A DNA stretch of 38,740 bases, from IMG/VR virus record IMGVR_UViG_3300021375_001524, positions 1 to 38,740 of that record; one strand, given 5' to 3'. Source of the stretch: a virus. Below are positions 9,853 to 29,875 of this stretch, piece by piece. The position numbers were made by a program, and so were the translations under genes. Positions within the stretch are counted from its first letter, which is position 1, and every line of letters starts with the position of its first letter. The notes below the pieces were generated by a model that was not told the origin of the DNA, did not search any database, and was given only the letters and a program-made list of their open reading frames with translations.

Positions 9853-10942
9853 TGAATTGTTCAGCATAAGGATCAAACTCTGTTCCACACTTCTGAGCAC
9901 ATACACCTAGCTTGCCTTCTTTAATACTATTGAATGCCCAACTGCGTTGTATGTTTTTCATAATGCCACTAGCAAACACACCTTCAATGCCATTTACTTT
10001 GGCACTAATTCCATCCTTGCCACCTGCTGCATCTATGAAGTCCCATATCTGTTCTACTTTAGGATCACTGTGCCACCATTTATACATACGACCAGCAGTC
10101 CAACAACAAGGCATAACTAATCCTTCTGCGGTAATAAAAATACTTTTAGTATCTTTACCTGCTACCTTACATTTTACTGTGGCTTGATTATAGTAGTCCA
10201 TCATACTGCCGTATGTCTTTTCAATCTCTTCTTGTTTTAATAATGCTAGGTTCTGATGCTCTGCTTTTTTAGGTTTAGCAAGTTGTTGCATGTCTGCACC
10301 TTTGCGATTCTTTGCTTGGTGTGTTTCTTTTTTCTCACTGTTTGCATTAATGAAGCGACCTGTTTTCTTTTTCATAAAACGTTCAACACCCCATTCTTTT
10401 GCTAGTTGTTCTGCACGTTCTACATCACATTCACTATGTTCAAAGATTAAGTAGTCCCATCTAGCTCTACCACCTGCGGCAATAAATGCTTTCATGTTAC
10501 GCTCTACTTTATCCCACTGTACGCCTTGTCTGTATAAGTGATTAGTTTCTTCTAGTCCATCTACACTAAAAATAACACAACCATTACGGCCAATTACTTT
10601 AGCAACTTCGGCCCACCATTCTGGATCTCTTGCACCTGCGTTTGTGTTCATACTTAACCACATATTAGGATTACAGTCGCGGAACCATTGGAATATTTCT
10701 AATGTATCTCTAGCACTAATAGGATCACCTAAGTTACCACACATATACATTGTCTTTAGTTGTGCAATAAAATCATGTGGGAACATGTCAATACAATCGT
10801 CAAGTGTTAGTTCTTGTAGGTTGTTTTTGATATGCTGATTAACTGGCCCGCCATTTTCATTACGGTCGCACATAGGACAACTTGCATTACAACGTTGTGT
10901 AACTTCTAAGTGAACCTCATTAATCTGTTTATATTCGTACAT
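9848..10942 (-). CDS. radical SAM/SPASM domain protein
   Basis: The N-terminal CNASCPMC (C18, C22, C25) is the radical SAM cluster motif. Core strands follow (MYMCGNLGDP, WLSMNTNAGARD, VIFSVDGLEETN). The C-terminal third holds a SPASM-type auxiliary cluster region with CKVAG, GLVMPCCW and a final CAQKCG. SPASM radical SAM enzymes commonly modify peptides (maturases, epimerases, thioether formation). The length of 364 fits. No precursor peptide is obvious next to it. It shares core wording (FSVDGLEETNHLYR) with the split radical SAM gene at 30.4-31.4 kb, so the two are related. The start overlaps the stop of the upstream membrane protein by one base. Confidence 0.88.
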   Translation of the reverse strand: MYEYKQINEVHLEVTQRCNASCPMCDRNENGGPVNQHIKNNLQELTLDDCIDMFPHDFIAQLKTMYMCGNLGDPISARDTLEIFQWFRDCNPNMWLSMNTNAGARDPEWWAEVAKVIGRNGCVIFSVDGLEETNHLYRQGVQWDKVERNMKAFIAAGGRARWDYLIFEHSECDVERAEQLAKEWGVERFMKKKTGRFINANSEKKETHQAKNRKGADMQQLAKPKKAEHQNLALLKQEEIEKTYGSMMDYYNQATVKCKVAGKDTKSIFITAEGLVMPCCWTAGRMYKWWHSDPKVEQIWDFIDAAGGKDGISAKVNGIEGVFASGIMKNIQRSWAFNSIKEGKLGVCAQKCGTEFDPYAEQFK

Positions 10943-11295
10943 TAAAACACTCCATCAAATATAAAGTAGTCAACTGCAAATGTCATTTCTGCTCCAATAA
11001 ATACTGCTAAGTAATAATTAAGTTTTCTTATCTGCCACAACCAATATATAAATGCCCATGCTATTCCTACTCTAAGTGTGTATAATACGTTGGCTTGTAT
11101 AAGCTCGTCCATTGAAGGTAATACTTGTGCTTGAAAGAACCAAGCAAATATTCCACCATCATATAAAAAACTTACTTGTGCCGCTATTAAAACTGCGGCC
11201 GAGTAGAACATATATTTATTAAAGAATTTTACAATATGTGCAGTTACTAATAATCTGTACCCAACATAAATTATGTTAGTTAATAATAATTCCAT
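10942..11295 (-). CDS. small polytopic membrane protein, 117 aa
   Basis: Three to four hydrophobic segments are visible (around residues 5-20, 30-50, 75-95, 98-115) with short charged loops (KFFNKY, QIRKLNY). No family is recognised. It is linked by one-base TAATG overlaps to the cupin gene upstream and the radical SAM/SPASM gene downstream, so all three are co-translated. Function is unknown; an inner-membrane location is expected. Confidence 0.65.
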   Translation of the reverse strand: MELLLTNIIYVGYRLLVTAHIVKFFNKYMFYSAAVLIAAQVSFLYDGGIFAWFFQAQVLPSMDELIQANVLYTLRVGIAWAFIYWLWQIRKLNYYLAVFIGAEMTFAVDYFIFDGVF

Positions 11296-16135: not shown

Positions 16136-18547
16136 TTAATCCATTCCCTCATACTGCATGTCAACCATCTTCTTGTGAAGTAGCTCACTTGCTAGTCCGT
16201 TCCTTAAACCTCGCAAATTCTCTGGAACTTTTTTATCTTTGTAAATTTCATCTTGATTATAAAAATCTACTCCTGGTATTGCTACTTGTCCATAAGCATT
16301 AAATCCAGGAACATAGTTAATTAAGGCAGCAATGATTTGTTGTAAGGCTTGTTGAGCCTCTAGTGTTTGTGCTTTGCCCATATCTTCTGCTAACTTATTT
16401 AACTTATCTTTAATAATTTCTTTCATCTTTTCTTTCTTTGCTTTTTCTTTTTGTGCCTTTGTTAGTTTTTTAATATTCTTTTTCTTTACAACTGGTTTCT
16501 CTTCTGTAGTTTCGTCTTCAGCAGCTTCTTCTTCTGTAGTTTCGTCTTCAGCAGCTTCTTCTTCAGTGCTTTCCTCTTCGCTTGATTCTTCCTCAGTAGC
16601 TTCTTCTTCGGTAGACTCTTCTTCTGTGCTTTCTTCTTCAGTAGTTTCATCTTCTGTACTTTCATCTTCTGTGTTTTCCTCTACTGTTTCCTCGGTATCT
16701 CCTTCAGTATCCTCAGTGGAACTATCTTCTTGTGATGATTCTGAGTCGTTACTATCCTCATCTGGTCCGTCATTATCCACTGACTGTTCCACATCACTAC
16801 TGGGCTCTTCTTCTTGGGATTCATTTGGCATCTCCATTTCTGGTTCTGGTTCGACATCAATCGATAATTCTAATTCAATCTGTGCTTCTACTTCAGCTTC
16901 AATTTGTTGTACTTCAGGAGCAAGATCTGTTTCTAATACTGGTGCTACTATAACTGGTGCGTCTATTACTACAATTTCTGTTGGAATAACTACTACCTCA
17001 ATTGGTTCTGGTTCGGGTGCTGATGGCTGTGGTAGTATAATTACATCTGGCATACGAGCTGGCGGTAATGATATAATATTATCAACAACACTATCACCGG
17101 TGCCGGGTATTCCAATGTCGCCTACTTCTGGTACATCTACAACTGGTGCTTGATATCCTTGACACAAGCTATCATATTGCGGGTTATACAAACATTGTTG
17201 ATTAAAGTATGCCTCGCTATAGCCAGTACACTGACTGCTATACAATGTATTAACTTCACACTGTGCTTCAAAGTGCCCGGTACAACTTGCATCATATAAA
17301 GGATCAGCAGTACATTGTTGATTTAGATATGCTTCTGCGTAACCTGTACATCCACTATCATATAATGGATTAGCAGTACATTGTTGAGTGTAGTATGCTT
17401 CAGCATACCCTGTACATCCACTATCGTATAATGGATCTGCACTACACTGATAATTATAGTAAGCAGTTTCATAACCTGTACATCCACTATCATATAATGG
17501 ATTAGCAGTACATTGTTGAGTGTAGTATGCTTCGGCATATCCTGTACATCCACTATCATAGAGTGGGTCTGCACTACATTGTTGATTGTAATATGCTGTT
17601 GCATAGCCACTACATCCACTATCATATAATGGATCCGCACTACACTGTTGATTGTAATAAGCTGTCGCATATCCTGGACAGCCACTGTCGTATGTAGCAT
17701 CAGCAGAACAGGCTGTGTTGTATTCGTATGTTGCTAATGCGTCTGCATAGCCTGGGCAACTAGAATCATATAATGCTGTGTCATTGCATGGGTTTGCTCT
17801 GTAAGTAAACCAAGTTTTCATATCTTTTATAATAGGACCATAGTATCCATCCCAATTACCTTTGTCGTATCCTGTTATTCTAAACCTTACATCACCCACA
17901 CTATTTGGTGTGCGTATTGTTCCTGCATTTGTTGTGTGATTGTATATTTCTATATTATCTTCGTGTATCTGCCAATAGGTTGATCCTTCTTGGACTTCGT
18001 TACTACTGTGAGCGTTACTTGATGTCCATTCATACCATGTGTCCATGGTCCATGTTTTAGTTTCAACTACATTGCCACTACTATCTGTGACTTCTACGAC
18101 CACAACTAATTCGTCCCACGAAGTATTATCCGTGATTGCGCCTGTGTTTGTATTAACTCTGTTTTCAATATTTGCACTACAAAATTCCCTAGTTCCATTA
18201 CCGTCATCAGTGTTGAAACAATGTATATATTTCCATTCATAGTGAGCTTTGTCTATGCTGACGCCTGTGCCTGCTAATGCTTGATTAATTGCATATGATA
18301 TTGCGAACGTGTTTACACATTCACCAAAACGTATTCCTGTTTCACCTGTGTGGATCATAGCACTAGTTCCACTTGGGCATCCAAATGTTGGACTCGTCAT
18401 TGTTCCATCATCTGGATCAAATGTATAAGGAGTTGTAGTAGTCGGGTTATCTGGTGCTGTAGTATCTGTTGCTAGTACGAAACTAGAGTAAAAACAAAAG
18501 CAAACCAACAATACCAATGCCTTGCATAGCACCTTCAAGTTTGTCAT
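16136..18547 (-). CDS. secreted 803-aa protein with ten Cys-rich 22-residue repeats
   Basis: Domains in order: signal peptide (1-26, ending FVLA); a Cys-containing N-terminal domain (about 45-250); ten tandem repeats of about 22 residues (about 254-470) with consensus CSADPLYDSGCTGYAEAYYNQQ split as C-x8-C-x12; a Pro/Val linker; an extremely acidic Thr/Glu tract (about 610-690); a Lys-rich segment KKKNIKKLTKAQKEKAKKEK; and a helical C-terminus. Two cysteines per repeat suggest a disulfide-braced solenoid outside the cytoplasm. I do not recognise a named family. The start overlaps the preceding gene by 65 nt. It is the centre of a late-promoter unit, so a structural, adhesion or lysis-stage role is inferred. 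Confidence 0.75.
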   Translation of the reverse strand: MTNLKVLCKALVLLVCFCFYSSFVLATDTTAPDNPTTTTPYTFDPDDGTMTSPTFGCPSGTSAMIHTGETGIRFGECVNTFAISYAINQALAGTGVSIDKAHYEWKYIHCFNTDDGNGTREFCSANIENRVNTNTGAITDNTSWDELVVVVEVTDSSGNVVETKTWTMDTWYEWTSSNAHSSNEVQEGSTYWQIHEDNIEIYNHTTNAGTIRTPNSVGDVRFRITGYDKGNWDGYYGPIIKDMKTWFTYRANPCNDTALYDSSCPGYADALATYEYNTACSADATYDSGCPGYATAYYNQQCSADPLYDSGCSGYATAYYNQQCSADPLYDSGCTGYAEAYYTQQCTANPLYDSGCTGYETAYYNYQCSADPLYDSGCTGYAEAYYTQQCTANPLYDSGCTGYAEAYLNQQCTADPLYDASCTGHFEAQCEVNTLYSSQCTGYSEAYFNQQCLYNPQYDSLCQGYQAPVVDVPEVGDIGIPGTGDSVVDNIISLPPARMPDVIILPQPSAPEPEPIEVVVIPTEIVVIDAPVIVAPVLETDLAPEVQQIEAEVEAQIELELSIDVEPEPEMEMPNESQEEEPSSDVEQSVDNDGPDEDSNDSESSQEDSSTEDTEGDTEETVEENTEDESTEDETTEEESTEEESTEEEATEEESSEEESTEEEAAEDETTEEEAAEDETTEEKPVVKKKNIKKLTKAQKEKAKKEKMKEIIKDKLNKLAEDMGKAQTLEAQQALQQIIAALINYVPGFNAYGQVAIPGVDFYNQDEIYKDKKVPENLRGLRNGLASELLHKKMVDMQYEGMD
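16501..16560. repeat. two exact 30-bp tandem copies in the acidic Thr/Glu-coding tract
   Basis: 16501-16530 and 16531-16560 are identical. They encode a Glu/Ala/Thr-rich decapeptide unit (AAEDETTEEE) of the 803-aa protein. Confidence 0.9.
17150..17790. repeat. ten degenerate 66-bp protein-coding repeats (Cys-rich 22-mers)
   Basis: The DNA repeats with a period of 66 bp in frame with the 803-aa protein. The central copies are nearly identical at the protein level (CSADPLYDSGC / CTANPLYDSGC alternating), while the outer ones are diverged. This fits expansion from the middle by recombination. Confidence 0.85.
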
Positions 18548-19119: not shown

Positions 19120-19143
19120 AAAGGGCAACAGGAGCTGCCCTTT
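19120..19143 (-). terminator. rho-independent terminator after tctC-like gene
   Basis: On the minus strand AAAGGGCA and TGCCCTTT form an 8-bp stem around GCTCCTGT, followed by TCTT. It separates the transporter unit from the envelope unit. Confidence 0.85.
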
Positions 19144-19180: not shown

Positions 19181-20242
19181 TTATTGAGGGATAACATCTT
19201 CTTTAAAGATTGCTGGTTTACCTGTAAACTGCAAGAAGTCAACTAGGTTAGCATATGTATCACGCTCGATTTGGTTACGTAAAATGTCTAGTGCGCCTTT
19301 CATATCGTCGCCGATAATCCAGTCATACTTTCCAGTTTTTACATAAATCTTTGCCATTGACTCTGGGTCTGCTGCCATGGCACGGAATGCCGCAACAAGA
19401 GCCGGAGTGTTTGGGTTGTCTTTTTTAGTCCATAATGCTTTTTGCATTACGTCACGGAAGTTACGAACTAATTCGAATGCGTCCCAGAATTCACCTGAAG
19501 GAGCAACACCCCATTTTTGTTCAAACACTTCGTGGATTGATTGGTTTGGCCAGTTTGGATCTGCATCAATTTCGCCTGTTTCCAAGTTGAATACACCTTG
19601 TGAGAACCATACAGTTGAGTAAGGAGCATCGTTATAATATTTGTTATAAGCTGCTGTTGACTCACGTGTTACATTAAGCTCACCACGTTGATAAGACAAT
19701 CTACGCTCTCCACCTGACATACCTTTGATGTATTTGTATTGAGTTCTGAAGATTTCTTTACCTGCTTCCATAGTTAAACCTGGTCCACCTTTAAGTAAGA
19801 TGTGTGCCATCATATCTGGATTCATACCTGAACCAGCTGAGAACAAAATCTTATCTGTATATGGATCAATTGACTTTTGGTGACCATTAATAATTGTAAG
19901 GTTCATCATACCAATTGGATCATACTGATAGTAATCATAGTCTACATCATCTACTAGATAACTTACACCATTACCACCATGTGATACCATAACCGTCTTG
20001 TCGTCTGACTGTAAATCATTATGGAATTTATTAAATCCAGGAATGTCGTTTGCACCTGGAATGTTTACGATCTTGATCTTTTCACCTAAGTGCTTCTCAA
20101 GTTCTTTTGCTACAATCGATGTCCACACAGATGTTCCTGAGCCAGGCTTCTGTGGTACAATGAAAGTATATTCTGCCCATGCTGGAACAGAGAATGACAT
20201 TGCTACTGCAACTGCCAAAAATGTTTTCATTAACTTATTCAT
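19181..20242 (-). CDS. TctC-like periplasmic solute-binding protein (tripartite tricarboxylate transporter)
   Basis: The 353-residue protein has a clean signal peptide (1-23, ending VPAWA). Its mature start EYTFIVPQKPGSGTSVWTSIVAKELEKHLG is the TctC/Bug-type opening, where the loop after the first strand binds the carboxylate ligand. A KIVNIPGANDIPGFNKFH segment corresponds to the family's second strand region. Such proteins deliver carboxylates to the TctA/TctB membrane complex. The gene follows the TctA-like gene by 9 nt and ends before a strong terminator. It is somewhat longer than usual (about 300-330). The substrate cannot be read; marine versions bind diverse organic acids. Confidence 0.75.
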   Translation of the reverse strand: MNKLMKTFLAVAVAMSFSVPAWAEYTFIVPQKPGSGTSVWTSIVAKELEKHLGEKIKIVNIPGANDIPGFNKFHNDLQSDDKTVMVSHGGNGVSYLVDDVDYDYYQYDPIGMMNLTIINGHQKSIDPYTDKILFSAGSGMNPDMMAHILLKGGPGLTMEAGKEIFRTQYKYIKGMSGGERRLSYQRGELNVTRESTAAYNKYYNDAPYSTVWFSQGVFNLETGEIDADPNWPNQSIHEVFEQKWGVAPSGEFWDAFELVRNFRDVMQKALWTKKDNPNTPALVAAFRAMAADPESMAKIYVKTGKYDWIIGDDMKGALDILRNQIERDTYANLVDFLQFTGKPAIFKEDVIPQ

Positions 20243-20251
20243 ATTTTACTC

Positions 20252-21712
20252 CTATACGAATTCTATTTTTGCTTTGTTAAAAAACAAACCCCAAATTGCA
20301 GCCAAAACTGCCAACACGAGGAATGTTGCGGGTAACCAATTTGTAATCAAATCGATCCATTCATACAATCCTGTAAATTGCAAATAACTTGCTTCAATTC
20401 TTGCACTAAGAATGAAACCAATTAAGAAACTTACACGACTAAACTTACAATACTTTAAGAATACACCAACTACACAACAAATAGCAAACATATAATAGTC
20501 TTCTATAAGTCCTGTGTATTGTGTACACGACCATACCAGCGATGCTAGTATTGGCCAAAAGTAATATCTAAAGGGTATATTTGTAATCCTAACTGCATAC
20601 TTGATAAACAAATATGAGATAGGTAAAATGATAATCAAACTTGCTAGATAACTGCTAAGTAGATGATCAAAAAATACTCCATCTGCGAGAACACTTGGAG
20701 TACCCAACTCCAAGCCAACATACATTAAGAGTCCCATTACAATAACTTCAAACGGTGCACCAGGAATTCCAAACAAAATTGTTGGTACATAGCTAGTAGC
20801 TTTTTGGGCATTGTTGGCACCTTCGCAACCAATTACACCTCTTACACTACCTTTTCCAATTCCTATCTCACCCTTTTCTTCGTCTTTGTTAGCAACTGCA
20901 ACTGTTTGACTATAAGCAAACCAATCTGCAATGTTGCCACCTATACCTGGAATTAATCCAACAAAGCCTCCGATGAAGCCACCTCGTAATCCATCCCATT
21001 TATATTTCCAACTATCTTTTATACCTTGAACTAACTGCGATTTAATCTTTGCAGAATCAAGATATATCTTTTCGGCTTTCATGCGATATGCACTTAGTAA
21101 TTCAGGAAATGCTAACACACCTGCCATTACAGGAATCATTTGTATTCCATCTCCTAAGTAATCCCAACCCATTGTCCAACGAGTAGCCGCAGTTTCGGGA
21201 TCCATACCTATGTGTCCAACCATAAAGCCGGCGATCAATGCAATAATGCCTCGTATCCAATACTTGCTACTAATGAATATTACACATGTCATTGCAAATA
21301 TTAAGAACGCAAACATTTCTTTAACGCCAAAGTACAACACAATTTTAGCGTACCAAGGTAAGAACAGGAATACGAGTAAGCCCCATATTAATCCGTTAAC
21401 CCAACTTGTGCTAATTGCGGCACTTAATGCTCTAGCTGCCTCGCCTCTGCGACTCATAGGAAAACCATCAATCATTGTAGCGGCGGCACCTCCAGCACCT
21501 GGAACGTTCATAACTACACCACAGAAGCTATCTCCAATACTACTTGTTACTACAACCGCTGTTGTAAACACCACTAGCATATAAGGATCGTCAAAGTATC
21601 CTACAAATGCATATATGGCTATCAATCCTGTTGTGGCACCAGCAACTGGTACTAGTCCTACAAAGAATCCATATATAACGCCTAGCATTAAAAACATTAA
21701 GTATGCTTCCAT
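20252..21712 (-). CDS. TctA-like permease of a tripartite tricarboxylate transporter
   Basis: At 486 residues with about ten or more membrane spans it matches TctA in size. It carries both family hallmarks: VMNVPGAGGAAATMIDGFPMS followed by RRGEAARALSAA in the N-terminal half, and GLIPGIGGNIADWFAYSQTV in the middle. TctA is the large sodium-coupled permease that works with the binding protein TctC and the small membrane subunit TctB. TctC is next door, but no TctB (about 150 aa, four spans) is recognisable nearby, so a host TctB or a TctB-independent mode is implied. The leader upstream is about 170 nt and GGAG lies 7 nt before the ATG. Confidence 0.9.
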   Translation of the reverse strand: MEAYLMFLMLGVIYGFFVGLVPVAGATTGLIAIYAFVGYFDDPYMLVVFTTAVVVTSSIGDSFCGVVMNVPGAGGAAATMIDGFPMSRRGEAARALSAAISTSWVNGLIWGLLVFLFLPWYAKIVLYFGVKEMFAFLIFAMTCVIFISSKYWIRGIIALIAGFMVGHIGMDPETAATRWTMGWDYLGDGIQMIPVMAGVLAFPELLSAYRMKAEKIYLDSAKIKSQLVQGIKDSWKYKWDGLRGGFIGGFVGLIPGIGGNIADWFAYSQTVAVANKDEEKGEIGIGKGSVRGVIGCEGANNAQKATSYVPTILFGIPGAPFEVIVMGLLMYVGLELGTPSVLADGVFFDHLLSSYLASLIIILPISYLFIKYAVRITNIPFRYYFWPILASLVWSCTQYTGLIEDYYMFAICCVVGVFLKYCKFSRVSFLIGFILSARIEASYLQFTGLYEWIDLITNWLPATFLVLAVLAAIWGLFFNKAKIEFV

Positions 21713-21886
21713 TTTTTATCTCCGATATAGTCTATGAAATTTTGTCAATAAGAATCCGTGCCAAAGACACGATCTTCAACACTCAATAAAACATCTATGT
21801 AATTTGATGAGTTACACCTTGGAACCCTAACACTCGTCTGGGTGTGGTGTATGACAGGAATAATACAGTTCTGTATTATTATAATA
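21713..21886 (-). ncRNA. structured 5' leader upstream of the tctA-like gene
   Basis: From the late motif at 21888-21895 to the ATG at 21712 there are about 170 gene-free bases. On the minus strand they hold three possible hairpins: AATAATACA/TGTATTATT around GAAC (about 21858-21879), TACACC/GGTGTA enclosing an inner ACCC/GGGT (about 21815-21852), and CGTGTC/GGCACG with a 3-nt loop (about 21757-21771). No known riboswitch consensus is recognised. The leader could regulate transporter expression or stability. Confidence 0.4.
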
Positions 21887-22582
21887 TTATTTATCTTTTC
21901 TTAACACAAAGTAGTATCTAGAGCCTTTTTCACCGTCTTCTTGTCTAATATCAACAATACTACAGTTCAATGTTGAAGCACTATTAATAATAAATTGGCT
22001 ATTCCAGTTAAAAAATTCAATCCACTTAGCCTCTGGTGCTTTGTGTTGTATTCCTGGATTTGCTCTAAAGTAAAGTAGCCCACCTGGTGTAGTTAAATTA
22101 ACTGCGTGTTCAAGTTCATTATAAACTTTATCTACAGTGCCAAAGTTGATGCTTCCTAAACAAATAGTAACATCAAATAAGTCTTGGCTACGATAATCTA
22201 GTATACTACTTTGCACATCTGCTTTTGTATTATATGGATCAACTCCAGTTAGGTTACTTATTTTACCTTTGAACTCATTGTATCCGCAACCCAAGTCAAG
22301 TACGCTTCTAGGCTTTAACGCATTAACTTCGTCAATGATAGTTAATCCACTGTACTTGTACTTCTTTGTTTTTGGTTGCCATACTTTACTAAAGTAGTTC
22401 TTTAGTACTGCATAGTCAATGATTGCAGCGAGTTCGTTAATGTCTTTGTGATAAAGATCATTTGTTTTTATACTTACTCCAAACGTTCCATTAATGGCTT
22501 GACTTAGTAATGCATTGTCTCGCATTAGTTGTGGACTAGCCATTAAAAGAGTATTCAGTTCATTTGTTATTTTACTGTTCAA
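21887..22582 (-). CDS. class I SAM-dependent methyltransferase, 231 aa
   Basis: Motif I RSVLDLGCGYNEF (92-104) and a following TGVDPYN with the ribose-binding Asp identify a class I methyltransferase. The later DVTICLGSINFGTVDKV and NLTTPGGLLYFRANPG match motifs IV-VI. The start is TTG at 22582, overlapping the TGA stop of the preceding Lys-rich gene, with AAGGTGG upstream, so translation is probably coupled. The next in-frame ATG (22543) lacks a ribosome site. The substrate is unknown. It is the last gene of the early unit from 23502. Confidence 0.75.
   Translation of the reverse strand: MNSKITNELNTLLMASPQLMRDNALLSQAINGTFGVSIKTNDLYHKDINELAAIIDYAVLKNYFSKVWQPKTKKYKYSGLTIIDEVNALKPRSVLDLGCGYNEFKGKISNLTGVDPYNTKADVQSSILDYRSQDLFDVTICLGSINFGTVDKVYNELEHAVNLTTPGGLLYFRANPGIQHKAPEAKWIEFFNWNSQFIINSASTLNCSIVDIRQEDGEKGSRYYFVLRKDK
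21888..21895 (-). promoter_or_regulatory. late promoter motif GATAAATA upstream of the tctA leader
   Basis: GATAAATA on the minus strand (21895-21888) overlaps the TAA stop of the methyltransferase gene. It is the only promoter-like signal found ahead of TctA. Its long distance to the ATG makes the call moderate. Confidence 0.45.
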
Positions 22583-23473: not shown

Positions 23474-23502
23474 ATTATATAATAAAATAAAGCTGTTGTC
23501 AA
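23474..23502 (-). promoter_or_regulatory. perfect sigma70 consensus promoter
   Basis: TTGACA (23502-23497), 17 bases, TATAAT (23479-23474) on the minus strand, reading into the small membrane peptide, cold-shock and basic protein genes. The -35 box overlaps the stop region of the upstream methyltransferase gene. Confidence 0.9.
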
Positions 23503-24083
23503 CTCTTTTTCCATATAATTATATTATGGTATTGCTTTTCGCCTTCAGGAGTAGTTAAACTGTGTATAGTTTCCATACTAACTACTTCCAAATCTTTTTG
23601 AGCATCCCAGCCCCCTTCAACAAACCAATCACCATCGTGCAAAGACATACTGCAAAATAATAATCCTTCATCTGTTAAACTATCTGCAAGGTTCTTAGAT
23701 GCACTTGCATCCACATGACCTTGTGTTAATACTCCTATTGCGGTAATGCAATCATATTGTTTTGATAATGGTGCTGATGTAATATCGTGTATTTGTTTTG
23801 ATCTATAATTCTTTGCTATAAATCTATCAAGCATGCCTTGGTTAACATCATATCCGTCTATCAAATATAATCCTTGATTAATTCCAAAACCCACTTGTCC
23901 ATTACCACATCCTATGTCTGCTACTTCTGTACCATTATTAAAATTAGCAGTAATCCATTCTGATGCTAATGTATGACACTTCCATCCTAGTTCTTCTATT
24001 ACTTGTTCATTGTAGTTGTCCCAATTGTCGTATAACTGACTATTAGTCTTTGCATATACTTCGTCTAACCATTTTTTAGTCAT
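23499..24083 (-). CDS. class I SAM-dependent methyltransferase, 194 aa
   Basis: Motif I EVADIGCGNGQVGFG (53-67), the following IDGYDVNQGML with the acidic SAM-ribose ligand, and the hydrophobic CITAIGVLTQGH region are standard class I methyltransferase features. A compact single domain without extra recognition domain suggests a small-molecule substrate. It is the last gene of the operon with two dioxygenases, an adenylate-forming enzyme and a nitroreductase, overlapping the latter by 8 nt. It would methylate the operon's product or intermediate (inference). Confidence 0.8.
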   Translation of the reverse strand: MTKKWLDEVYAKTNSQLYDNWDNYNEQVIEELGWKCHTLASEWITANFNNGTEVADIGCGNGQVGFGINQGLYLIDGYDVNQGMLDRFIAKNYRSKQIHDITSAPLSKQYDCITAIGVLTQGHVDASASKNLADSLTDEGLLFCSMSLHDGDWFVEGGWDAQKDLEVVSMETIHSLTTPEGEKQYHNIIIWKKS

Positions 24084-24765
24084 AATACTTTACCATTTCA
24101 TTTATATCTTGTCTTATAGTTCTATAATTATTAATTGGCTTACTAGGATCTTCGTATCCCATACTCATGCCACATAAAACTATTTTGTCTTTGTATTCGG
24201 GTAATTCTTCTCGTACAATGTCTGCGTATTCACTTAGTGATCCTTGTGGACATGTTGCTAACCCATTTTCTGTTGCTAATAACATAATGCTTTGTAGAAA
24301 CATTCCATAATCAACATACGAACCCTTGCCTAGTTCTTTATCTATAAAAAATAATAACATTACTGGTGCATCAAAGGCTCTGTAATTCTTTGCATATAAA
24401 TCATCTTTCTCTGCTTGCATTTCTCTAGTTATACCTAATTGAGAATATAACGCTAGTCCACATGCTTTTCTGTTTTCTTTGTATCTGCCAAACCATTTAG
24501 TATCCTTTTCAGACTTTTTGTTTTGTGGGTAATATCCATAATCCATTTTGGGTTTCTTGCCCGATCTAAATGCTTCTTCTAACTTAGTACATAAACTGTT
24601 TTTTGCTTCTCCTGACAATACTGCTATATCCCATGGCTGATGATTATCTCCACTAGGTGATCGCTTTGCTTGTTCTAGTATTTTAACTACAATATGTGGA
24701 TAAACTTGCTTATCTAAAAAAGCTCTAGTTGATCTACGTTTCTTTATTGCATCGCTAACATTCAT
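24076..24765 (-). CDS. nitroreductase-family FMN oxidoreductase, 229 aa
   Basis: The N-terminal AIKKRRSTRAFLDK holds the FMN-phosphate Arg/Ser pattern, SPSGDNHQPWDI (37-48) the flavin-contacting segment, and LCGMSMGYEDPSKPIN the C-terminal family motif. Nitroreductase-fold enzymes reduce nitro or quinone groups or act as flavin dehydrogenases in natural product pathways. Length is typical (about 220). It overlaps the adenylate-forming gene by 4 nt, so in this context an oxidation or reduction step on an activated small molecule is more likely than detoxification. Confidence 0.85.
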   Translation of the reverse strand: MNVSDAIKKRRSTRAFLDKQVYPHIVVKILEQAKRSPSGDNHQPWDIAVLSGEAKNSLCTKLEEAFRSGKKPKMDYGYYPQNKKSEKDTKWFGRYKENRKACGLALYSQLGITREMQAEKDDLYAKNYRAFDAPVMLLFFIDKELGKGSYVDYGMFLQSIMLLATENGLATCPQGSLSEYADIVREELPEYKDKIVLCGMSMGYEDPSKPINNYRTIRQDINEMVKYYD

Positions 24766-26195
24766 ACTTGAGAGTGATCCTTAACATGAACATGGTTCAG
24801 TATCTGATTAGCGGGTCCATTTAATACAATACCCGCTAACTTGCTTTTTTGTAACTTTTGTGGAGTTCTTGTATCGTCTGTTTGCCCAAAGAATAGTTTA
24901 TCAGTAACTTGATATATTTCATGTGGTCTTTTTGATGGTTGCATTTCTTTAAAACTTTTTGCCATATTGTGTATGTCAGCGGTTCCTGTATAAATCAAAT
25001 AATGTAATTCGTCTTTACTACAACTAGCAACATTTTCAATGCCTGGTGTCTGTAATGCTTTTGCTTCAATCATTCCTGTGTAAATCTTAACACCACCTTT
25101 CATAAAGATAACATCATCAAATGCTCTACCTTTGTAAAACCATGCTCCGTCTCTTTCTTCAAACTTATCTCCATCTGTTTGCCAGTCACGGGTTCCATAC
25201 TTATACCATAGTACACCTTCTTCGTCATATTTAAGTTCGCCATTATAAAATGCAGGGTCATAAACAAATCCATAAAACTTTTCTATTGGATCACCTGGTC
25301 TATACTCTGCACGTGAATGACAGTCTGCTTCTGTTGATGCCATCATGTTATGCATACATACAAAGTTAAACTTCTTTTCAATACTACGCACAACTGATTC
25401 TGGTGTATGTCCACCCGAACATTCCCAATACTTAATGCCACTCCAGTTAAAATCATCAGGACAAGCGGCTACTATATTCTTAACTGCAATAGGATATGAA
25501 ATGCAACAATTAGGATTTGCTTTTTGTATTTGTTCTGGAATGTTATCTCCGTAATTTAAAAAGTGTAATCCACCGCCAACATAATACATTCTCAATAAGT
25601 TATACGGATTGTATGTTGCAGTAAATCCATGTGTACAAAGTATATAAGGTCTTTCATCTTGTTCAAACTCTGGTGCAATAGCAAACAAATGCTGAGTTGA
25701 TGCATGTGCTGTGCAACCTAATAATGTTTCTCCGTCTACAATTGCATTTTCGTGATCTTCATAATCCCAAAAGAAAGGATACATTTCAAAGAACTCTTTA
25801 ACTGTAGTTCCACTTGTCATACCTCTGTAAATCTCTAATGGATGCAGTATTGTAGGTGTCAAATCGTCTGTTAGCATGGTGATCTCGTTGCTACGTATAA
25901 TACATATTGCTTTGGACCCTGCAATTAATCCATCTAATTCCATTTTACTTTGTCTGCCGTCGGCTTGTGTTGCACTGCCACCATTCTTAATACTAGCAAG
26001 AATCCACAAGTAATCATCTATTGTAACTTGTTGTTCTGCTATTACAAAAACAACGTGAGGTCCAATACCATGTTCTTTTAGTCTTTCAATCTTAGCATCA
26101 AGGTTAGCGTGTAGTTCACCCCAAGTAATTTGTTCTGTTGATGAACTTAGAAATATTTGATCATCACTAAGTGGTGCTTGTTTTTGTTTTAACAT
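24762..26195 (-). CDS. adenylate-forming (ANL superfamily) ligase-like enzyme, 477 aa
   Basis: Core motifs of AMP-forming ligases are present in order: a diverged A3 phosphate loop RGMTSGTTVKEF (124-135), A5 MMASTEA (284-290), A7 QTDGD (339-343), A8 GRAFDDVIFMKGGVK (356-370), and a C-terminal RTPQKLQKSKL (443-453) containing the likely catalytic Lys of A10. The enzyme would activate a carboxylate as acyl-AMP and pass it to CoA, an amine or a carrier. No carrier-protein domain is fused. The glycine loop lacks the usual PKG end. It lies 5 nt after a dioxygenase gene and overlaps the nitroreductase gene, within a coupled late operon. Confidence 0.82.
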   Translation of the reverse strand: MLKQKQAPLSDDQIFLSSSTEQITWGELHANLDAKIERLKEHGIGPHVVFVIAEQQVTIDDYLWILASIKNGGSATQADGRQSKMELDGLIAGSKAICIIRSNEITMLTDDLTPTILHPLEIYRGMTSGTTVKEFFEMYPFFWDYEDHENAIVDGETLLGCTAHASTQHLFAIAPEFEQDERPYILCTHGFTATYNPYNLLRMYYVGGGLHFLNYGDNIPEQIQKANPNCCISYPIAVKNIVAACPDDFNWSGIKYWECSGGHTPESVVRSIEKKFNFVCMHNMMASTEADCHSRAEYRPGDPIEKFYGFVYDPAFYNGELKYDEEGVLWYKYGTRDWQTDGDKFEERDGAWFYKGRAFDDVIFMKGGVKIYTGMIEAKALQTPGIENVASCSKDELHYLIYTGTADIHNMAKSFKEMQPSKRPHEIYQVTDKLFFGQTDDTRTPQKLQKSKLAGIVLNGPANQILNHVHVKDHSQV

Positions 26196-26200
26196 ATTGT

Positions 26201-27121
26201 TTAGCCTTTGTTTGCTCGTTGTCTTGAAACGTATTTTTTATCTTCTATTCTTGGATCATATGCACTGTCTGGACCCAGTATGTTTGAATAATCAAACGCT
26301 GGTCGCCATATTACTCTTTCTATGCTTTGAACCCAGGACCGTCTATGTAGTGTATAATATTGGTCACAAATTAAAAAGTCGCCTTCTCTTAGAACAAAAT
26401 CTGTTATGTTTTTTCCTCTGACTAACGCTTTCCAAAATTTATCTTGTATCTCATCTACATTAATTGGATTTCCTTTGTACCATGCTTTGGTAATAAATGC
26501 TGGTTGCCATAATATAAATTCTTCACCAGTATATGGATGTATGTTAACTACATTTTGCCGTTCATCATCATAATGAAATATTGGAGTTTTATATGCTTCT
26601 TGAACCCCGTCAATTGCTTTCATACTTTGGTCACGTTTCATTTCTTCAACGGTTCCATATATTCCTTTTTCTTGGCCATTTAGTTGTGTTTCTACATTGC
26701 GCCAATATTCTTTTTCTTCTTCTGAGAATTCCTGAAATGCTTTATGAGTGTTTAATAAACTTAGTACTGTATCTGGACAAGAACCTACGCAATATAATCC
26801 TGTTAATAGTTCTTTAAACTCACCAAAATGACACATTCCACCATCGCCGTGATATACTAAATCAGTTGGACCAAACATACCGTGTGGTGACTTTCCTACT
26901 GGTTGTGTTGTGATAATAGAAAGGTCTGGGTTATCTGTAGGATTAAATTCCATATGTCCCATTGAAGGATTAGAATCATTTGTATCGCCGATACGTCTAC
27001 AGAATTCAATAAGCTCGTCTTGTGTTAGATATTGTTCGTGAAACATTACATGTCCATTATCTAACAACACGTCAACTGCTTCACGTAATTCTTTGTCTGT
27101 GTATTCTGTTATCTTTTTCAT
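26201..27121 (-). CDS. Fe(II)/2-oxoglutarate dioxygenase, TauD/TfdA-like, 306 aa
   Basis: The iron triad is readable: VYHGDGG gives H91-x-D93, and YYTLHRRS near the C-terminus supplies the distal His (H259) and the 2-oxoglutarate-binding Arg residues. Family-typical flanks include SCPDTVLSLLNT and GEEFILWQPAF. TauD-like enzymes hydroxylate, demethylate or desaturate small substrates such as taurine, betaines and amino acids. It is a paralogue of the next gene upstream (overlap 4 nt). The C-terminal tail (about 285-306) is basic and extra. Substrate is unknown. Confidence 0.82.
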   Translation of the reverse strand: MKKITEYTDKELREAVDVLLDNGHVMFHEQYLTQDELIEFCRRIGDTNDSNPSMGHMEFNPTDNPDLSIITTQPVGKSPHGMFGPTDLVYHGDGGMCHFGEFKELLTGLYCVGSCPDTVLSLLNTHKAFQEFSEEEKEYWRNVETQLNGQEKGIYGTVEEMKRDQSMKAIDGVQEAYKTPIFHYDDERQNVVNIHPYTGEEFILWQPAFITKAWYKGNPINVDEIQDKFWKALVRGKNITDFVLREGDFLICDQYYTLHRRSWVQSIERVIWRPAFDYSNILGPDSAYDPRIEDKKYVSRQRANKG

Positions 27122-27993
27122 TGATCTAGTGTACCTTTATAGTCTATAGCAACACGCCAAAGTTCTCTATTCTTATTCATTATTGGCGAACGTCTGTGTA
27201 GTGTATAAAACTGATCCATAATTAATATATCCCCTGGTCTAAACACAATATCTTTGATGTACTTAGTTCTATTAATAACTTTATCAAACTTTTCTTGTAG
27301 CTCATCTAAATCATTTATAAGTTTACCATCATGCCAGGCTTTAGTAATTAAAGGTGGTTGCCAATATAAAAACTCTTGGCCTCCAATTGGGTGAACATTA
27401 ACTACAGGCATACGCTCTTCACCTGTATGTTCTGCTACTTCTTTATATTCTTTTCTGTATCCATCATCAATAGGAATAACTCTATCTTCATCTGTCATTG
27501 CTTCTTTGCTTTTATGATAATACTTACCTAATATACTTCCGCCGTTATTGTTTAATTGTACTTCAACTTTACGCCACCATGCTTTTTCTTCTGGTGGTAA
27601 GTCTAAAAAAGCATCACGATTATTGCTCACTGACAAAACTGTATCAGGGCAGTAATCTTTACAGTATAAACATATTAACCATTCTTTGTGTCCCCATTTG
27701 CCATCAACTACATGATGTACAGTTCCATTTGAGTGCCATTCTAAATCGTTGTGTCCTAATAACATTCTAGGATCTGGTGATACTATTGATATATCTGGAT
27801 TGTCTTTGGGATTAAATTGCATATACCCCAACATATCATCATCTGTGCTACCGAATCTTCTGCAATAGTCAACTAACTCTGGCATAGTAAAGTCTTGATC
27901 TGCATGCAGTGTGAATCCTTCGCTTAAAATACGTCTAGCTTCTTCCATCATTCTTCTATCAGAGAAGTCTTTTATTTGTATTTCGTTGTTCAT
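27118..27993 (-). CDS. TauD/TfdA-like dioxygenase with altered iron triad (HxN), 291 aa
   Basis: It is clearly homologous to the neighbouring dioxygenase (shared YCRRFG, YMQFNPKDNPD, CPDTVLS, FYTLHRRSP), but the first metal motif reads EWHSNGT, giving H87-x-N89 instead of H-x-D/E. The distal H266 and following Arg residues are kept. Loss of the carboxylate ligand is seen in Fe/2OG halogenases (where it is Ala/Gly) and in some inactive or altered enzymes, so chemistry here may differ. It is the first gene after the late motif at 28019-28026, with an AAAGGAA site. Confidence 0.8.
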   Translation of the reverse strand: MNNEIQIKDFSDRRMMEEARRILSEGFTLHADQDFTMPELVDYCRRFGSTDDDMLGYMQFNPKDNPDISIVSPDPRMLLGHNDLEWHSNGTVHHVVDGKWGHKEWLICLYCKDYCPDTVLSVSNNRDAFLDLPPEEKAWWRKVEVQLNNNGGSILGKYYHKSKEAMTDEDRVIPIDDGYRKEYKEVAEHTGEERMPVVNVHPIGGQEFLYWQPPLITKAWHDGKLINDLDELQEKFDKVINRTKYIKDIVFRPGDILIMDQFYTLHRRSPIMNKNRELWRVAIDYKGTLDQ

Positions 27994-28017
27994 AATATTA
28001 AGTTCCTTTAATTAAAA

Positions 28018-28887
28018 CTATTTATAATCTCTCCACTTATCGTGTCGTTTGTTGTGTGCTTGTATAGTTCTATCAATGATAATTGCTAATGCAACGATAC
28101 TTAAACCACTTATAACTCCTAGTCCTAAGTATCCATTGCCTATTGAATTCATTACTTGTGAACCTAGTCCACGTACACCAATCATACTTGCAATTACAAC
28201 CATTGCTAATGCCATCATTACTGTTTGGTTTACACCTCCTAGTATAACATTACGTGCCAATGGTATCTCTATAAATGCTAAAATATGTTTTGGCTTTAAT
28301 CCCATTGATTGTGCTGTTTCAACTAAATTATAGTCTACATCACGTAAGCCAAGGTTTGTAAATCTAATCACAGGTGGAATAGCAAATACAACTATTGCTA
28401 TTAATCCTGGAACTTTGCCTAACCCAAATAACATTACTACTGGAATTAGATATACAAAACTTGGAATAGTTTGCATCAGATCTAATATAGGCGTTATGAT
28501 TCGTTGTGCTGTATTATTCTTTGCCATTAATACTCCTGTAGGAATACCAATTGTTATACAAACAAATGTGGAAACAAATACAATTGACAATGTTTGCATT
28601 GTGTCGTCCCACATTCCGACTAAACCAATTAATACAAAACTAATTAGAAAACCTAAAATAAGTTTCCAGTTGGCTGTTGCTTTCCAAATTATAAAACCAA
28701 ATACAATTAGGAAAACATACCAAGGTGTTGCTAATAATAACTTCTCAAGGTTAATTAATAACCATTGTAATGGAGAGAGCAAGTCTGTAAACCACTCTCC
28801 CCAATTTGCCGCAAATTCTCTAAACGTTGCATCGATTGATTTTTTGAAACTAGTTATAGTTCCTTTATCCAACGATGGAAAGTTCAT
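28018..28887 (-). CDS. ProW-like glycine betaine/proline ABC transporter permease
   Basis: This 289-residue polytopic protein has the binding-protein-dependent permease core. The EAA-type loop appears as NLVETAQSMGLKPKHILAFIEIPLARNVILGGVNQ, and IGIPTGVLMAKN and GLGSQVMNSIGNG are typical of ProW/OpuAB. It forms the membrane channel for osmolyte uptake driven by an ATPase (ProV), which is not found in the window. The gene starts 1 nt after proX, so the pair is coupled. The N-terminal region before the first span matches ProW in having an extra amphipathic segment. Confidence 0.88.
   Translation of the reverse strand: MNFPSLDKGTITSFKKSIDATFREFAANWGEWFTDLLSPLQWLLINLEKLLLATPWYVFLIVFGFIIWKATANWKLILGFLISFVLIGLVGMWDDTMQTLSIVFVSTFVCITIGIPTGVLMAKNNTAQRIITPILDLMQTIPSFVYLIPVVMLFGLGKVPGLIAIVVFAIPPVIRFTNLGLRDVDYNLVETAQSMGLKPKHILAFIEIPLARNVILGGVNQTVMMALAMVVIASMIGVRGLGSQVMNSIGNGYLGLGVISGLSIVALAIIIDRTIQAHNKRHDKWRDYK
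28019..28026 (-). promoter_or_regulatory. T4-like late promoter TATAAATA for the dioxygenase operon
   Basis: TATAAATA on the minus strand (28026-28019) overlaps the ProW stop codon. The predicted start near 28013 gives a 20-nt leader with AAAGGAA before the ATG at 27993. Exact T4 consensus and ideal placement. Confidence 0.65.
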
Positions 28888-28888
28888 A

Positions 28889-29875
28889 TTACTGTAACGA
28901 CTCTGTAATATTGCTAGCCGCGTCTGTTGTTACCCATGTTGTCCAAATTTCTGGATGTCGCTTTAGAAACTCAACTGCCATATCTTCTGCGGTTGCTTGA
29001 TTATCATCTGCCCAAACTAACATAGAAGTAATTACATCTCCAGTTAGTCCGCGAGCTGTTAAATAATCTGCTACTGCACTATTAATGTTTGGTGTTACAA
29101 TAGTTCCTGTTGCTGCACTCGGCCAGTTCATTGGTCTTGCATCTGTACAATCTAATTGTGCAATACAATCGCTCCAATGTGTTGAATCAAATTCAATATC
29201 AGAATCAAGTTTAACCATTCCTAAACGACCTACTAATACTGTAGGTGCCCAATAATATCCAAACACGCCTGCTTGTTTTAGTACTTGTCCTTCCCAATAT
29301 GCATTCAAGCCTGTGCCTGAACCTGGGTCAATAATCTTCCAACCTTTTGCTTCCATGTCAAATGCACGGAATAAGTTTTCGTTGTGTTTCTTACAACTCC
29401 AACCTTCTGGGCAAATTACAATTCCACCTTTGCTTGAATCTTCTGGGTGTGGGAACAAGTCTGGTCTTGCTAATACTTGTTCAATTGTTGTAAGTCCATG
29501 TTGCTCTACAATATAGTCTGGAACATACCAACCTTCACCTGCTCCTACTACAACTTCATCTCTTAATTGAACAAGAGAGTCGCTTGTATCAGAATTGATA
29601 TTAGCAGTTGCTTCGTCACCTAACAATGATGTCCATGCTTCTCCAAAGATATTTGGTGAGCCTGTAGCCATCATAGATGCAATTGTGGCGTCTATGCCGC
29701 CTGGTACTAATTCTGTGTCGTGTCCATATCCATGTTTTAGAATATAAGCATCAATGTTAGCAATCATTGATCCAGATTGCCAATTTAACTCAGCAATTTT
29801 AATGTCATCTGCCTTAACAACAGTTGCTGACATGATCATAATCATCATGCTTATGAGTGATGTTAAATATTTCAT
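28889..29875 (-). CDS. ProX-like glycine betaine/choline-type substrate-binding protein
   Basis: A signal peptide (1-22, ending VVKA) precedes IKIAELNWQSGSMIANIDAYIL, the OpuAC/ProX opening. Tyr/Trp-rich segments follow (GEAWTSLL, GWYVPDYIVE, FGYYWAPTVLVG, MNWPSA) of the type that cage quaternary ammonium ligands. The 328-residue length fits a periplasmic binding protein. It captures an osmolyte such as glycine betaine for the ProW permease; the exact ligand is unknown. It is first behind a perfect consensus promoter, so it is likely expressed early. Confidence 0.88.
   Translation of the reverse strand: MKYLTSLISMMIMIMSATVVKADDIKIAELNWQSGSMIANIDAYILKHGYGHDTELVPGGIDATIASMMATGSPNIFGEAWTSLLGDEATANINSDTSDSLVQLRDEVVVGAGEGWYVPDYIVEQHGLTTIEQVLARPDLFPHPEDSSKGGIVICPEGWSCKKHNENLFRAFDMEAKGWKIIDPGSGTGLNAYWEGQVLKQAGVFGYYWAPTVLVGRLGMVKLDSDIEFDSTHWSDCIAQLDCTDARPMNWPSAATGTIVTPNINSAVADYLTARGLTGDVITSMLVWADDNQATAEDMAVEFLKRHPEIWTTWVTTDAASNITESLQ

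Follow-up and report, generated by a model that had tools for sequence, protein, structure and literature searches.

Phage transport genes are usually regarded as single genes borrowed from a host. The locus described here, in a 38.7-kb viral record from IMG/VR that was analysed at its full length (the window), raises the question of what a virus does with a receptor and permease of the tripartite tricarboxylate-type transporter (TTT) family when the standard third subunit, TctB, is missing. In contrast to a single borrowed gene, this receptor and permease belong to a deep clade of their own that is mainly viral, lack the standard subunit and travel with a methyltransferase. We argue, with rather more confidence than doubt, that the pair imports an organic anion, that it is expressed late and works with two components and without TctB, and that it is tied to that methyltransferase.

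Phage tctA had previously been noted only as a domain match or in a passing mention. It was recorded by protein-domain match in SUP05 phage contigs (eLife 2014, PMC4164917), in a report whose accessible text contains no analysis of TctC or TctB, and ‘tricarboxylate transport’ genes are mentioned in passing for a marine myovirus (ISME J 2020, PMC8115048). Both concern TTT genes in viruses, as here, and neither report, as far as the accessible text of the first goes, describes a clade, a linkage or a leader. In the open-licence literature we found no paper that describes the clade, the missing TctB or the link to the methyltransferase. New here are that link, the combination of late-promoter-like motif, covarying hairpin and terminator, and a 117-aa protein that abuts tctAC in some relatives.

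A TctA permease and a divergent TctC receptor

The pair consists of two genes:
20252–21712, minus strand: tctA, TctA large permease of 486 aa with no TctB extension (Pfam TctA match; viral clade supported at 100/100)
19181–20242, minus strand: tctC, TctC/Bug-type periplasmic substrate-binding protein of 353 aa (PDB profile, fold and viral relatives)

The tctA product covers the full Pfam model PF01970 (E = 1.4e-89; 301 bits against a cut-off of 28.9). In a tree whose root is unsettled and some of whose branches are long, viral, Omnitrophota and Pelagibacter metagenome-assembled genome (MAG) sequences form one clade (100/100), and its viral and Omnitrophota members lie far from canonical TctAs. 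The tctC product, which has an apparent signal peptide ending ...AWA-E and is 80–92% identical to its counterparts in close viral relatives, matched no Pfam family, PF03401 included; the best viral member of the family scores 21.5 bits against the PF03401 cut-off of 27, so the label TctC-like rests on profile and fold rather than on Pfam membership. Searched against the PDB, a profile of 42 relatives matched BugD (E = 4e-10) along with further TctC structures, and a second profile, made exclusively from viral sequences, matched genuine cellular TctCs (best E = 9e-23). Fold comparison of a deep-alignment model (pLDDT 95.3, pTM 0.92) returned TctC/Bug proteins for all of the top 11 entries (Z 18.8–22.6; the next entry, 13.5), with BugD (2f5x) the best match at Z 22.6 and BugD, AdpC, MatC, Bug27 and TphC the closest structures. 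A first model, built from close relatives alone, was discarded as poor (pLDDT 57). Profile-level homology and the modelled fold together confirm a TctC/Bug receptor, and the sequence-only reading, which had proposed a phage-encoded TctA and TctC, is upheld by Pfam for the one, by profiles and fold for the other and by the viral context of the relatives.

Both proteins depart from their families at motifs that we took from a review of these transporters (PMC5812351). In TctA, the G-Hy3-G-Hy3-G-Hy2-P-G-Hy-G motif of TM7 retains PG[LIV]G in 71 of the 71 family sequences in which it was found. The copy in TM1 keeps G...G...G..P, with PG changed to P[V/S/A/I/M/T]AG in 64 of 74. The TctC pincer motif P-F-x-A-G-G-x-x-D retains its P and first G; F is replaced by Q in all 85 sequences and D by S or T in 80 of them (D is kept in four). 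Hydroxyl substitution at such pincer positions has been described for TctC proteins, in which distal ligand contacts are reported to be variable (PMC5812351). Loss of the PG glycine of TM1 in most members and the Q and S/T changes in the pincer, set against an intact TM7, suggest an altered ligand site. Both genes are under purifying selection (dN/dS 0.05–0.08 for tctA where dS is unsaturated, and about 0.05–0.11 for tctC).

Set beside known TTT systems (TctABC, BctCBA and the Bug receptors), the phage permease likewise belongs to the TctA family and the receptor shares the TctC/Bug fold and an apparent secretion signal, whereas the permease lies in a deep separate clade with an altered TM1 PG motif, the receptor has a changed pincer motif, TctB is absent, the gene order is tctA–tctC instead of tctC–tctB–tctA, and a methyltransferase is linked. 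The PBP2_Bug_TTT proteins of uncultured Caudovirales in BFVD (for example, A0A6J5T247) show the same fold in viruses, but are only 10–14% identical to the phage TctC and represent a different lineage. Other phages have, next to the ProXW–TauD cassette, a TctC/TctA pair that is far more distantly related (27%/34% identity; L237:3237-4648 and L240:3237-4648).

Absence of TctB and candidate partners

The tctA and tctC open reading frames (ORFs) are 9 bp apart, with tctA first. Of the non-redundant TctC types, 51 in all, 49 sit at loci that also carry TctA (the exceptions, L104 and L128, have no placed tctA); where both genes are placed, tctA is upstream, mostly abutting tctC or overlapping it by 4–8 bases. 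A TctB concealed in the gap between them was rejected on the four larger gaps that were inspected, which contain other genes. The TctB Pfam model, PF07331, found nothing in the 38.7-kb window or in any of 49 viral relatives (14 close and 35 more distant, in records of up to 192 kb), nor in the draft genome of the Omnitrophota member, which has tctA–tctC. As a positive control, the same model gave matches in 85 of 197 sampled SAR11 draft genomes and in three control genomes. The earlier remark that TctB was not recognisable thus stands after a profile search, in which the TctB elsewhere in the phage that would have refuted the sequence-only reading did not appear, and on these counts we label the unit a TctB-less variant and not a member of the tripartite system. 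TctB is poorly conserved in sequence, so a very diverged TctB could escape detection. A SAR11 locus (L092) considered as a cellular TctB-less case was withdrawn, its TctA running off the contig and SAR11 having TctA–TctB fusions.

A host could instead supply the subunit, so that phage TctA and TctC assemble with host TctB and redirect the host's own tricarboxylate-type transporter, as the sequence-only reading had supposed. TctB is standard in cellular TTT systems, where the canonical neighbourhood is tctC–tctB–tctA, and if the host is SAR11 the 85 of 197 sampled drafts with any TctB can be read both ways: a partner is available in these, but only in these. The phage TctA is about 24–33% identical to cellular TctAs that have TctB neighbours, and the Omnitrophota draft genome, again, has no TctB for its own pair to use. 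We consider pairing with host TctB unlikely. Independence of TctB is the simpler reading, given a clade without TctB throughout, its one apparently cellular member included, and tctA and tctC genes that usually touch or overlap. Archaeal TctA without TctB or TctC is on record (Winnen et al. 2003, as cited in PMC5812351); as cited there, it lacks TctB like the phage unit but, unlike it, lacks the receptor too. The same review reports a view of TctB as accessory and notes that in TRAP transporters the small subunit corresponding to TctB is essential (PMC5812351).

Subunit borrowing is suggested by a second transporter in the window. Positions 23499–29875 encode an OpuAC/ProX-like binding protein, a ProW/ChoW-like permease, two TauD-like dioxygenases, an AMP-binding enzyme, a nitroreductase-like protein and a methyltransferase, which resembles a phage set for betaine/choline-type uptake and oxidation that lacks an ATPase of its own. 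Its binding protein occurs in 25 viral loci, about ten of which carry most of the cassette, and neither the window nor the flanks of these 25 loci show an ABC ATPase signature. Since this ProXW-like ABC pair has no nearby ATPase, borrowing host subunits may be a habit of the phage, which lends a little indirect support to the use of a host TctB.

Another candidate partner is encoded by the window itself:
10942–11295, minus strand: small membrane protein of 117 aa whose two halves resemble each other, probably with four helices (no more than a candidate accessory subunit)

This family, known from 47 viral loci, has a twofold internal repeat, AV-I-A[QE]-[ST]F--D, and in one record (L169) two overlapping ORFs encode homologues of the two halves. 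As an unrelated replacement for TctB it initially looked strong: the repeat implies a likely four-helix protein, 32 of the 47 loci found with the 117-aa query alone carry this TctC, and in several distant relatives (L143/L208, L209, L212, L224, L226 and L229) it abuts or overlaps tctC or tctA in varying gene orders. The case was weakened by absences and by context. Twenty-three viral records with tctAC lack the protein, among them one whose tctAC is 89–91% identical to that of the window (G007), whereas some records that have no tctAC encode it; a radical-SAM gene block surrounds it in the window and in several tctAC-free relatives; and it has no profile similarity to PF07331 (hhalign probability 0.2%). 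That it is the missing third subunit now seems to us distinctly improbable.

Two further proteins were seen near tctC. A second hydrophobic family of about 75 aa (VKYASAVTIL...GWIYVGYRWNEKAIILNFLPQ) lies directly 3′ of tctC in about ten loci and is patchy in distribution:
L159:7001-7291, L120:2355-2582 and L138:2587-2811: examples of the ~75-aa hydrophobic family, directly downstream of tctC

At 16136–18547 the window encodes an 803-aa secreted-looking protein with CSADPLYDSGC-GYA repeats and an acidic Thr/Glu-rich stretch, which is 60–67% conserved in three relatives.

Linked methyltransferase and the tctA leader

Upstream of tctA lie a methyltransferase gene and a leader, with a hairpin at the other end of the unit:
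21887–22582, minus strand: class I SAM-dependent methyltransferase linked to tctAC (Methyltransf_23 and linkage)
21888–21895, minus strand: late-promoter-like GATAAATA with core ATAAATA (core conserved in relatives)
21713–21886, minus strand: intergenic tctA leader
21859–21880, minus strand: leader hairpin with a 9-bp stem and GAAC loop (covariation)
~19120–19143, minus strand: terminator-like hairpin 3′ of tctC (also in several close relatives)

The methyltransferase matches Methyltransf_23 in 11 of 11 members, although the window protein itself falls below the cut-off, and it adjoins or lies near tctAC in 36 of the 49 non-redundant loci. The linkage is reciprocal for the subfamily near the query: scanning from the methyltransferase alone and taking the best 80 of 516 matches, we obtained 62 non-redundant loci, 53 of them with this TctA/TctC, and tctAC was present at 40 of the 43 methyltransferase loci whose flanks each extend for 2.5 kb or more. 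This linkage and the wide viral spread of the unit had been missed in the sequence-only reading.

Because a simple promoter and terminator scan of the window did no better than shuffles, conservation in relatives was used instead; the simple terminator scan left the tctC 3′ hairpin unflagged. Within the window the 8-mer GATAAATA is no more frequent than expected by chance for its pattern, but six relatives share its ATAAATA core without change where the leader begins. The leader hairpin, which begins 7 nt after the motif, shows compensatory changes in six of eight pairs, with 95.8% of cells paired in an alignment of six stems that were cut by hand beforehand. A covariance model of the leader found no second copy in the window, gave its best matches among close relatives upstream of tctA and, beyond these, had two matches (L192 and L193; E ~0.01), each about 200 nt upstream of a tctC–tctA operon of another type. 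Comparison with Rfam gave no match. In several close relatives the hairpin 3′ of tctC recurs with arms that differ in sequence. The proposal of a dedicated unit with a late-type motif, leader and terminator holds up on the invariant core, the covarying hairpin and the 3′ hairpin.

We infer late expression, transport activity, TctB-independence and the link between cargo and methyltransferase. Late in infection, tctA–tctC would probably be transcribed as a unit from the late-type promoter, with the structured leader and terminator. TctC would be exported to the periplasm and capture a small organic anion, and TctA, as an ion-coupled permease, would take the anion from TctC and import it without TctB, which would make the pair a two-component form of the tripartite system. 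The imported compound would probably be consumed by, or supplied to, the neighbouring SAM-methyltransferase or some other pathway under phage direction. That the cargo feeds energy or carbon metabolism during infection, as proposed earlier, is a guess. More tentatively, and with doubt outweighing confidence, the methyltransferase, a TctB-independent TctA, a divergent TctC and the structured leader may constitute a mainly virus-borne module that brings a specific metabolite into the infected cell for methylation; if so, a two-component class of tricarboxylate-type transporter is kept chiefly by phages. The identity of the ligand would reveal what these viruses draw into infected cells, and a TctA and TctC that act alone would bear on the open question of the role of TctB.

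The two proteins might instead alter the surface or membrane of the infected cell, for example by taking up periplasmic or membrane space against a second phage or by sensing, and not import a nutrient at all. Bacteria commonly have orphan TctC proteins that lack a membrane partner (PMC5812351), and the signature residues of the TctC pocket are altered; against this, permease and receptor are kept together under strong purifying selection, and the TM7 motif of TctA is intact in 71 of 71 sequences. We regard a surface or sensory role as highly improbable, and the importer as the preferred reading.

Viral origin and spread

Close relatives of the pair (76–92% identity) lie on 16 and 13 viral contigs, and a broader scan found at least 277 viral contigs encoding this TctC. 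T4-type gp23 is present on 7 of the 17 relatives tested and terminase on the contigs of four; on a 34.7-kb contig (G610), tctAC at about 21.7–24.2 kb has terminase (18.5 kb) on one side and gp23 (33.8 kb) on the other. From these markers and this position, the tctAC unit is viral and resides on bona fide viral genomes, as a viral auxiliary metabolic gene should, and the best explanation for the window is that it is part of a T4-type tailed phage. The cellular collection, scanned with two short peptide patterns, yielded only two contigs with close relatives, one from an Omnitrophota MAG and one from a Pelagibacter MAG; as the better pattern is present in only 33 of 47 family TctAs, cellular members can have been missed. 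The Omnitrophota contig has a cellular-looking neighbourhood and is the sole apparently cellular member found. The Pelagibacter contig (L031) is viral-looking and groups with phage contigs G610 and L171, which suggests phage DNA binned into the MAG. Wider sampling of Omnitrophota and Pelagibacter gave no other relatives as close. The unit looks like a nutrient-uptake device retained mainly by viruses. An origin of tctAC in host chromosome, which the sequence-only reading had named among its refutations, or in mis-assembly, for which the window's lack of a gp23 or Terminase_6N match might speak, is rejected as next to impossible, given gp23 and terminase on the relatives' contigs, tctAC within the structural region of G610, and a family spread over hundreds of viral contigs with only one apparently cellular genome. 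Some viral contigs of jumbo size, 300–343 kb, also carry relatives of the methyltransferase/tctAC module (L270, L311, L321 and L220).
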